Shown: positions 21,289 through 28,797 of the stretch, piece after piece | Layout: each line of letters starts with the position of its first letter | How positions within the stretch are numbered: position 1 is the first letter of the stretch | NCBI RefSeq assembly: GCF_023499255.1 | Contig: NZ_CP092183.1 | Location: 379,501-443,500, forward strand | Origin: Couchioplanes caeruleus | GTDB taxonomy: Bacteria; Actinomycetota; Actinomycetes; Mycobacteriales; Micromonosporaceae | Length of the DNA stretch: 64,000 nt | Direction: 5' to 3' | Notes under the pieces: model-generated | The model's input: the letters and a program-made list of their open reading frames with translations, nothing else | Databases searched by the model: none | What the model was told of the DNA's origin: nothing | Made by a program: the position numbers and the translations under genes

Positions 21289-21306
21289 CGCCGCGGATTG
21301 CGGGCG

Positions 21307-21387
21307 TGCGGTAGGAGGGATTCGAACCCTCTCAGCGATGCACCTGCTTTACAGGCAGGCCCGACTCTCCCGCGTCGGCGCTACCGC
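21307..21387 (-). tRNA. Atypical tRNA-Tyr-like gene (GTA)
   Basis: 81 nt. The acceptor GCGGTAG pairs with CTACCGC, the anticodon stem CCTGC-CTGTAAA-GCAGG gives GTA, the variable region is 11 nt, and the T-arm is GAGGG-TTCGAAT-CCCTC. Discriminator A73. Unusual points: position 8 is C, not the near-universal U8; the D-stem is 5 bp (CCGAC/GTCGG); and the variable arm is short and weak for tRNA-Tyr. It could be a divergent tRNA-Tyr or a specialised tRNA. Confidence 0.7.
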
Positions 21388-21399
21388 TTGCGGATTGCG

Positions 21400-21472
21400 T
21401 ACCCGGGGAGGGATTCGAACCCCAATCCTTCCGACCCTGAATCGGACGCCTCTGCCGTTGGGCTACCCGGGC
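21400..21472 (-). tRNA. Class I tRNA-like gene with Leu anticodon CAG
   Basis: 73 nt. The acceptor GCCCGGG pairs with CCCGGGT (G1 opposite U72). The D-arm is GCCCAACGGCAGAGGC and the anticodon stem-loop TCCGA-TTCAGGG-TCGGA has anticodon CAG followed by G37. The variable loop is only 5 nt. The T-stem is weak (one wobble, one mismatch). Discriminator A73. True tRNA-Leu is class II with a long variable arm, so this body does not match its anticodon. Confidence 0.65.
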
Positions 21473-21512
21473 TCGTGCTTGCCGCCGGCGGTTTCGGCGG
21501 CGGTTTGGTGCG

Positions 21513-21585
21513 TACCCTCGGCGGGATTCGAACCCGCACCGGCGACGTCCTCAACGTCGTGCCTCTGCCGTTGGGCCACGAGGGT
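21513..21585 (-). tRNA. Class I tRNA-like gene with Leu anticodon GAG
   Basis: 73 nt with perfect pairing throughout: acceptor ACCCTCG/CGAGGGT, D-arm GCCCAACGGCAGAGGC (identical to the CAG gene beside it), anticodon stem-loop CGACG-TTGAGGA-CGTCG (anticodon GAG, G37), T-arm GCGGG-TTCGAAT-CCCGC, 5-nt variable loop, A73. It is a well-formed class I tRNA whose anticodon reads the Leu codon CUC. The D-arm resembles that of tRNA-Trp more than tRNA-Leu. Confidence 0.75.
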
Positions 21586-21623
21586 GGACCGCACCGCGTC
21601 GGGGCGGTGCGGGGCGTCGGCGG

Positions 21624-21651
21624 GCCGGCGGGGGTAGCGGTCCCGCCGGCC
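21624..21651. repeat. Perfect 10-bp hairpin 5' of the tRNA-like cluster
   Basis: GGCCGGCGGG (21624-21633), an 8-nt loop, and CCCGCCGGCC (21642-21651). It lies 39 bp upstream of the first tRNA-like gene on the minus strand and could be an anti-terminator or processing signal. Confidence 0.5.
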
Positions 21652-21702
21652 CGGCCGTGGCCGGGCGCGTACCGCGCACCGGGCCGGGGAGAAAGTCGAT
21701 AT

Positions 21703-21739
21703 GAGAAAAGCCGCCCGGTCCTCGGATCGAGGGGGCGGC
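21703..21739 (-). terminator. Intrinsic terminator after short ORF, before tRNA-like genes
   Basis: On the minus strand GCCGCCC pairs with GGGCGGC, with an inner CCTCG/CGAGG pairing, followed by TTTTCTC. Rho-independent terminators this clear are uncommon at such GC content. It may end the esterase transcript or act as an attenuator for the tRNA-like genes 118 bp further on. Confidence 0.7.
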
Positions 21740-21760
21740 TCGGATGGGTACGCTGCTGCG

Positions 21761-21829
21761 TTACCCGCTCCGCCGCTCCGGCGAATAGGTGAGGTCGGAC
21801 AGGAGTAGCTGAATGGCCCGCCGCGTCAT
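21761..21829 (-). CDS. Possible 22-aa leader peptide
   Basis: ATG with GGGGA eleven bases upstream. The 22-residue peptide has Leu at 8, 9, 10 and 13 (codons CTA CTC CTG CTC), Tyr at 15 (TAT), and arginines at both ends. It stops 22 bp before the intrinsic terminator stem. The downstream tRNA-like genes carry Leu (CAG, GAG) and Tyr (GTA) anticodons, matching those residues. It could be a chance frame; nothing longer is present. Confidence 0.3.
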   Translation of the reverse strand: MTRRAIQLLLSDLTYSPERRSG

Positions 21830-21948
21830 GTCGGTTCAACTCCCCTCGTCCTTGCCGGTGTTGCGATCATCCTGTAGGACCGGGCCGTAGTGGTAAAGGC
21901 ATTTATGGGCCGGCCGGCGCCGCGGGTGCGGCGCCGGCCGGAATGCGG

Positions 21949-27966: not shown

Positions 27967-27996
27967 GAACCGGACGACACGTTGGGAGCCGCAAAG

Positions 27997-28797
27997 ATGC
28001 GCAGGTCGATCGCCTATCCGCTGGTGACACTCGGGGCAGTCGTGGGGTCGGCAGCGGTGGTCGCGTCTCCTGCGCTGGCGCACGGCTACGTCTCCGCCCC
28101 GCCCAGCCGCCAGGCCCTCTGCGCGAGCGGTGCGGTCAAGGACTGCGGGCAGATCCAGTTCGAGCCGCAGAGCGTCGAGGCGCCCAAGGGCCAGCGCTCC
28201 TGCAACGGCGGCGTGGCGCAGTGGTCGGTGCTCGCCGACGAGAGCCGCAACTGGCCCGCGAAGGCGGTCGGCAAGAACGTCACCTTCACGTGGGTCATGA
28301 CGGCCCGGCACCGCACCAGCAACTGGGAGTACTTCATCGGTGGCAAGAAGGTCGCCACCGTGGACGGGGGCAACCAGCAGCCGGACGCCGTGGTCACGCA
28401 CAACGTCGACCTCAGTGCCTTCCCCGGCCGGCAGACGGTCCTCGCCGTCTGGAACATCGGTGACACGGCGAACGCGTTCTACAGCTGCGTCGACCTGAAC
28501 GTCGGCGGCGGTGGTGGCGGCTCGGCCACGCCGACGACTCCTCCGGCCGCACCGACGACCCGGCCCACGACGGCCGCGCCGACCGCTGCGCCGACGACCG
28601 CTGCGCCGACGACGAACGCGCCGACGACCAGCGCTCCCGGTGGTTCTGCGAGCGGCTCGTGGGCCGCGGGTGTGGCGTACAAGACCGGCGACGTCGTGAG
28701 CTACGAGGGCAAGAAGTACAAGTGCCGCCAGGCGCACTCGTCGATCCACAGCTGGGAGCCGTCGATCTACACCCTCGCCCTCTGGCTGCCGCTGTGA
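27997..28797 (+). CDS. AA10 lytic polysaccharide monooxygenase with CBM5/12
   Basis: 266 aa; GGGAG lies eight bases before the ATG. The signal peptide ends SPALA just before HGYV, so His29 becomes the mature N-terminal copper ligand. The second histidine-brace residue is in TARHRTSNWEY (about 103). The catalytic domain runs to about 172, then a Thr/Ala/Pro linker (PTTAAPTAAPTT), then a chitin-binding CBM5/12 (SWAAGVAYKTGDVVSYEG to the end). AA10 enzymes with CBM5/12 oxidise crystalline chitin. The stop overlaps the next gene by 4 bp. Confidence 0.92.
   Translation: MRRSIAYPLVTLGAVVGSAAVVASPALAHGYVSAPPSRQALCASGAVKDCGQIQFEPQSVEAPKGQRSCNGGVAQWSVLADESRNWPAKAVGKNVTFTWVMTARHRTSNWEYFIGGKKVATVDGGNQQPDAVVTHNVDLSAFPGRQTVLAVWNIGDTANAFYSCVDLNVGGGGGGSATPTTPPAAPTTRPTTAAPTAAPTTAAPTTNAPTTSAPGGSASGSWAAGVAYKTGDVVSYEGKKYKCRQAHSSIHSWEPSIYTLALWLPL

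Follow-up and report, generated by a model that had tools for sequence, protein, structure and literature searches.

A putative leader-peptide attenuator upstream of class I tRNA-Leu genes in Couchioplanes caeruleus and in related tRNA arrays

Introduction

What are two tRNA genes with leucine anticodons on class I bodies doing beside a divergent tRNA-Tyr gene in Couchioplanes caeruleus? The three genes lie in a stretch of 64,000 nucleotides (contig NZ_CP092183.1, positions 379,501 to 443,500; hereafter the window) of a genome assembled as one contig of 8.42 Mb, and an initial annotation, made from the letters alone, had seen in them specialised tRNAs or decaying copies. Here we propose, giving this reading a probability of roughly 0.7, that the three genes make up a small reserve operon of tRNAs, controlled by ribosome-mediated transcription attenuation, as judged from sequence features that recur upstream of related tRNA arrays.

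Results

Three tRNA genes and an overlooked control region

ARAGORN, one of the checks suggested at the outset, called two tRNA-Leu genes and a tRNA-Tyr gene (Table 1), which bears out the three minus-strand cloverleaves described before. The window scan with Rfam RF00005 agreed for the GAG gene (54.1 bits) and the CAG gene (49.7 bits); the tRNA-Tyr gene was absent from the listing of that scan and scored 40.9 bits in a search of the organism's own genome. As first described, the Leu pair is of class I: each gene has a variable loop of 5 nt, G37, A73 and the same D-arm (GCCCAACGGCAGAGGC). The CAG gene additionally has G1:U72 and an unpaired first T-stem position. The C8 of the tRNA-Tyr gene is equally real. 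Decay of this gene was rejected: in our array list C8 is shared by 21 of 25 array tRNA-Tyr genes, so the window gene looks conserved, not decayed. Four arrays (L109, L132, L133 and L102) hold tRNA-Tyr genes of a second family (GCGCGTCGTGGACGGCGG...), which is very different and whose T loop region is unusual. Long ORFs antisense to the tRNAs (for instance 21298-21792, plus strand) were not accepted as genes. Elsewhere in the window, at 27982-28797 on the plus strand, lies an ORF whose mature part starts HGYVSAPPSRQ and which we take to resemble a lytic polysaccharide monooxygenase.

Upstream of the cluster, beyond the stretch on which the initial annotation dwelt, there is a leader ORF with a terminator (21829-21704) that had been overlooked. 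The whole putative control region (21906-21704, minus strand) comprises a promoter, a leader ORF of 22 codons, a possible antiterminator and an intrinsic terminator, whose stem begins 22 nt past the first base of the leader stop codon. The arrangement ATAAAT-GCC-TTTACC, with the AT box 3 nt upstream of the -35, fits the WhiB7/WblC layout, and among the proteins of the genome is a WhiB-family member with an RGRPRK AT-hook, presumably WhiB7. In L189 we read by eye a long ORF, then a hairpin and a T run, upstream of the WhiB7-like gene, an order consistent with the known uORF attenuation of whiB7. The window leader is unremarkable alone, since 5 of its 17 body residues (four Leu and one Tyr) belong to the array isotypes. 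T-box control of the cluster was rejected because Rfam gave no T-box match in the window, where the tRNAs alone reach the gathering score.

Table 1. Coordinates of the tRNA genes and of the elements of the putative control region in the window
Feature	Position	Strand	Basis or remark
tRNA-Leu(GAG), class I	21512-21585	minus	ARAGORN and Rfam RF00005
tRNA-Leu(CAG), class I	21399-21472	minus	ARAGORN and Rfam RF00005
tRNA-Tyr(GTA), divergent conserved form with C8	21306-21387	minus	ARAGORN and own-genome search
Promoter-like site	21869..21906	minus	AT box, -35-like and -10-like elements; putative function
AT box ATAAAT	21906-21901	minus	3 nt (GCC) before the -35-like element
-35-like TTTACC	21897-21892	minus	17 nt before the -10-like element
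-10-like CAGGAT	21874-21869	minus	part of the promoter-like site
Shine-Dalgarno-like GGGGAG	21840..21845	minus	sequence
Leader ORF MTRRAIQLLLSDLTYSPERRSG*	21761..21829	minus	Leu codons CTA CTC CTG CTC, Tyr codon TAT
Possible antiterminator	21733..21775	minus	last leader codons pair with the terminator 5' arm; folding z -2.03
Intrinsic terminator	21704..21741	minus	stem 21741-21708, -23.6 kcal/mol; T run TTTTCT 21709-21704

In the mechanism that we propose, a stress-type promoter, whose AT box is spaced 3 nt from the -35 as in WhiB7/WblC promoters, would initiate the transcript, and a ribosome would read the leader peptide, whose codons would demand the amino acids of the downstream tRNAs (here Leu and Tyr). 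With charged tRNAs plentiful, the ribosome at the stop codon would mask the last leader codons, the terminator would form and the array would stay off; with one charged tRNA scarce, it would stall upstream, the last codons would pair with the 5' arm of the terminator and, the terminator being prevented, polymerase would continue into the tRNA genes. Charged with leucine, the class I tRNA-Leu would then restore the decoding of CUC/CUU and CUG. We infer both the induction of the array and this direction of the switch.

Leader and terminator precede tRNA arrays across the family

Related arrays are present in named Actinoplanes and in other Micromonosporaceae records, and the 30 loci found by tRNA similarity usually have, ahead of the first tRNA, a short ORF and then a terminator. 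Under a mechanical rule (a hairpin below -12 kcal/mol before a T run; an ORF of 10-60 codons with a ribosome site, its stop 6-50 nt before the stem) leader and terminator are predicted in 43 of 51 array entries, the window included. Since 19 of these entries came from a scan for the attenuator pattern itself and one from a plasmid, next to 31 (30 loci) found by tRNA similarity, the fair figure is 24 of the 30 loci found through tRNA similarity alone. Among these 30, five further loci (L002, L003, L011, L018 and L030) have a leader by eye or by pattern, no terminator being recognised in L003, and L029 has no leader. By the mechanical rule no leader was found in L128 and the second L130 cluster, and no terminator in L106. 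Counted by hand, the stem starts 19-26 nt after the stop codon in 40 of the 43 leaders.

The scan pattern, which joins the common leader end to the terminator and misses variants such as the window's own leader, was run over a collection of the genomes of 84,980 species and yielded 35 stretches, 30 from Micromonosporaceae and 5 from elsewhere. Of the former, all but L098, a metagenome contig of 4.7 kb, are followed by same-strand tRNA genes at a distance of 72-391 nt (29 of 30); the five others, from three Aeromonas, one Clostridia and one Verrucomicrobia assembly, lack a downstream tRNA in their loci. The predicted layout is specific to tRNA arrays.

One of the 45 leader-array rows analysed below, L130, belongs to a different family of the same order. 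Not counted in the statistics are leader ORFs that we picked out by eye upstream of arrays in a different genus of Micromonosporaceae (L177), two more families of the class (L176 and L183; L181) and a Nonomuraea plasmid (L069 with L175); these five leaders contain, by hand count, 57 of 68 array isotypes. The L181 array is Leu, Leu, Tyr behind MAIRRLYHRLPSASLARHGRTLEY*, with no terminator recognised. A second leader type (MYR.HAE.NPQ...), with its own terminator, was seen in L137 and L118. In L137 it follows a common-type leader in tandem, hairpins lie 268 and 27 nt before the first tRNA, and the locus seems to carry two attenuators in series.

Antiterminator and promoter across leaders

The last leader codons are able to pair with the terminator 5' arm around a small hairpin that holds the stop codon. 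Across the 43 leaders this predicted antiterminator folds with a mean of -23.4 kcal/mol and a mean z of -1.93 against shuffled leader ends, 74% lying below -1. The pairing test excluded L118, L130 and L137, which carry the other leader type, and duplicates were removed, leaving 40 segments; 39 were aligned, L116 being omitted as its leader has no RW ending (folding z +0.26). In this alignment 80.9% of the pairing cells pair, against at most 64.1% when slid, and 13 cells have changes on both sides, a number equalled by 1 of 500 shuffles. The pairs with both-side changes (5) showed no excess, being reached by 101 of 500 shuffles, and RNAalifold retains only five outer pairs, which are nearly invariant. 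From these models the antiterminator is likely, though not proven, to be real.

As for the promoter, 37 of the 45 leaders are preceded by a hexamer with at least 5 of 6 A/T, spaced exactly 3 nt from a downstream -35-like TTG/TTT, which a -10-like site follows after a further 16-19 nt; shuffled sequence gave a mean of 0.2 and a maximum of 2 (200 shuffles).

Leader residues follow the tRNAs of their own array

The leader tests used 45 rows, namely the 43 obtained by the mechanical rule and L105 and L106, added by eye; not among them are L114, L120, L128, L129, the L130 cluster listed second and L069. The start codon and the last four residues were trimmed from each leader, and Met was excluded from the isotype counts. 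Array isotypes were found in their own leader in 291 of 298 cases, against a permuted mean of 211.4 and a maximum of 241 (10,000 permutations). The idea had been formed on eight arrays; in the remaining 37, which were not wholly unseen because upstream DNA of other tRNA-similarity loci had been viewed beforehand, the count was 268 of 275 (null mean 202.4, maximum 226). With one array per cluster the match was 95.4% against 73.3% at 18 clusters (P at most 5e-5); P was at most 2e-4 at 9 clusters and about 0.04 at 4, close to the minimum that four permit. The seven misses were Trp (L109, L137), Asp and Val (L118), Ile (L123), Phe (L130) and Val (L138); for L137 we took the second of its two tandem leaders, at the cost of a Trp miss that the first would avoid.

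Residue by residue, in counts that treat related arrays as independent, arrays with and without the tRNA differ in how often the leader holds Lys (18/18 vs 3/27), Cys (22/22 vs 6/23), Glu (8/8 vs 8/37) and Trp (8/10 vs 4/35). Over the 45 arrays Met, Phe, Asp, Pro and Ala did not reach P 0.05 in this test, Met showing no association (7/18 vs 9/27). Seen from the leader, 67.7% of the residues belong to array isotypes, against 45.3% when permuted, so the leaders hold other residues too, which make up about a third. At the codon level, again treating related arrays as independent, anticodons present in the array can decode 663 of the 841 leader codons for array isotypes (null mean 632.3, maximum 661; n = 5,000), an excess carried by Ser (53/76 vs 36.9) and Gly (78/88 vs 68.8) and absent for Ala, Leu, Pro, Thr and Val.

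Single loci illustrate the match. The L088 array encodes Trp, Gln, Thr, Ala, Asp, Ile, Arg, Lys, Glu, Asn, Val, His, Tyr and Cys tRNAs, and all 14 residues occur in its leader, MSWNSNCAIDPSWASWCGSAISVVTVKHHIRAHESYRDQERWSG*; the L127 array has Leu, Tyr and Cys tRNAs behind MLCTCLYLAPDRWRG*; and L105, whose upstream DNA is akin to that of the window, has extra Ala and Gln tRNAs and a leader with an Ala/Gln-rich start. In related arrays the amino acids of the leader peptide match the tRNAs encoded downstream.

These results bear on the alternative of a leader that senses translation stress in general, as the whiB7 uORF does; any stall would then open the array and the residue content would be incidental. 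The promoter layout is WblC/WhiB7-like, whiB7 itself is described as under uORF attenuation in the available text of PMC10287673 and PMC7157823, and the antiterminator would also stay free without any translation. Leader residues, however, track array isotypes across unrelated arrays, and we regard a purely general sensor as unlikely; a general promoter and a specific attenuator may act together. The best reading of the predicted attenuator is that it responds when the charged tRNAs supplied by the operon itself run short.

The class I genes are of leucine type and recur in arrays

The premise that bacterial tRNA-Leu is class II does not hold for this organism. All 51 tRNA matches in its genome were inspected, and the housekeeping tRNA-Leu genes with CAG, GAG, TAG and TAA are class II, whereas the sole CAA gene (G000:C1:6351696) is class I. 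The window Leu genes have no long variable arm, and since the only housekeeping tRNA-Leu(CAA) has none either, the long arm does not define the tRNA-Leu family here. A covariance model built from 29 class I sequences, including this CAA gene, matched 227 of 246 Actinomycetes genomes (E 1e-13). Only the best 30 loci of that search, which include the window's own, were retrieved and inspected. In 29 of them the match is a tRNA-Leu (14 TAA, 6 TAG, 6 CAA, 2 GAG and 1 CAG), always with A73 and A15:U48; in the remaining one, L155, ARAGORN makes no call at the match. Of the 30 loci, which span up to 3 kb, 27 contain just one tRNA. Class I tRNA-Leu genes, to go by these matches, are common in Actinomycetes. 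Among the papers listed by a search of the open-access literature for class I tRNA-Leu with LeuRS, none concerned Actinobacteria.

Comparing clusters across Micromonosporaceae, as had been advised, brought up related arrays with conserved class I Leu genes. The 50 arrays counted contain 75 of them (41 GAG, 31 CAG and 3 CAA) and no class II Leu gene. A73, A14 and A15:U48 are identity elements that matter to LeuRS, and the array genes have A14 and A15:U48 in 75 of 75 and A73 in 74 of 75 cases. All five housekeeping tRNA-Leu of the genome likewise combine A73 with A15:U48, a pair that among the 41 other tRNA genes listed is present only in Ala(TGC), Lys(TTT) and Lys(CTT). The A73 exception, an array class I tRNA-Leu(CAA) at L013:542-618 with the same gene in L130, has U73, which may bar its charging with leucine. 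Class I tRNA-Leu genes also occur on phage Myrna and on plasmids of Curtobacterium and Nonomuraea. A tRNA gene of Myrna (L067:4718-4789) annotated as tRNA-Ser is called tRNA-Pyl by ARAGORN, with anticodon CTA.

Such mobile carriers, the phage and the two plasmids, could suggest that the window cluster is a decaying remnant of a mobile tRNA array, now functionless, as could its mere three genes, the unpaired T-stem position of the CAG gene and the relative L106, where no terminator was found. Yet the leader, stop and terminator of the window are intact, and the Leu, Leu, Tyr set recurs in L106 and, in another family, in L181, whose leader contains Leu and Tyr; a functionless remnant is quite improbable. 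With 75 class I and no class II Leu genes in 50 arrays, two stray decaying copies are no explanation either. Of the original choice between specialised and decaying tRNAs the first half is borne out in part: the genes are conserved, specialised and probably regulated.

That the class I bodies carry another amino acid and misread CUC/CUG, as had been considered, is very hard to credit: mistranslating tRNAs of Streptomyces are a precedent, the GAG gene is nearest to the organism's own tRNA-Arg(ACG) in the masked alignment and the CAA gene of L130 has U73, but the 29 tRNAs at the best 30 model loci share Leu anticodons and the leucine-type core, the sole housekeeping CAA tRNA has the same body type, and the acceptor ends of the array Leu genes are G1:C72, G1:U72 or A1:U72 in 75 of 75, with no case of the proline-type C1:G72 of the three own tRNA-Pro. 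As class I tRNA-Leu is common in Actinomycetes, misreading by the window tRNAs appears unlikely, and a misacylated or recoding tRNA-Leu was set aside on the Leu-type core and Leu anticodons of the inspected model matches. No sign of another amino acid, of recoding or of peptide or lipid modification was met in these analyses of tRNA genes and their upstream DNA. Derivation of the GAG and CAG genes from tRNA-Leu(CAA) by an anticodon shift was unsupported: in the alignment with the anticodon loop masked, the nearest own tRNA is Arg(ACG) for the GAG gene and Leu(TAA) for the CAG gene. The odd genes of the window probably encode ordinary tRNAs for leucine and tyrosine and belong to a small reserve operon, and we infer their charging with leucine, for the class I pair, and a role as replacement tRNAs.

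Discussion

The proposed reserve operon has relatives among known systems. The amino acid operon attenuators (trp, his and leu leaders; see also PMC1183508) share with it a short leader ORF with regulatory codons, a terminator and, as predicted here, a competing structure. They sense one or a few amino acids, whereas the array leaders would sense 2 to about 18 and the genes under control would be tRNAs. The whiB7/wblC system has in common Actinobacteria, translation stress, an AT hexamer 3 nt before the -35 and uORF attenuation, and in the accessible parts of PMC7157823 and PMC10287673 six tRNA genes are reported under direct WblC control; according to the latter, whiB7 rises once the VapC5 toxin cleaves tRNA-Ser. 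The WblC hexamer given in the accessible part of PMC7157823 is GAAAWY, whereas the arrays here mostly have TAAATA or ATTAAT types, and a leader matched to tRNAs is not mentioned in those parts of either paper.

In the available text of PMC5966550, the tRNA array units of mycobacteria, phages and plasmids are likewise dense, mobile and redundant with housekeeping tRNAs. They are defined there by at least 20 clustered tRNA genes, a number reached in L118 (31), L069 (35) and L176 (27), whereas the window cluster has three, and that text mentions no leader or attenuator. A mycobacterial tRNA cluster holds a short-loop tRNA-Leu(TAG), like the window's a class I tRNA-Leu in a cluster, there beside a class II isoacceptor, and some cluster tRNAs are expressed, at higher levels in stationary phase (PMC6582537, available text). 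Its anticodon, TAG, differs from those of the window, and the same text mentions neither a short-loop mechanism nor a leader.

Among the papers listed by searches of the open-access literature, preprints excluded, we recognised none on leader-controlled tRNA arrays. To our knowledge no earlier attenuator is known to control tRNA genes.

Going further, and only as a tentative idea that may well prove wrong, the arrays could be an immune-like reserve against tRNA loss. The stress promoter and the isotype-listing leader would act as an AND gate, opened by tRNA cleavage or uncharging through anticodon nucleases, toxins or antibiotics, and divergent bodies such as the class I tRNA-Leu would go unrecognised by the attacker and be recognised by the synthetase.

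The rule that bacterial tRNA-Leu is class II breaks down in Actinomycetes. To the question of what purpose tRNA arrays serve, a leader that lists the isotypes offers a direct and testable answer. If our reading is true, this would be the first known attenuator of tRNA genes, with one leader reading many amino acids at once, and each array would be turned on by a shortage of its own tRNAs, so that its trigger would be predictable from the sequence.
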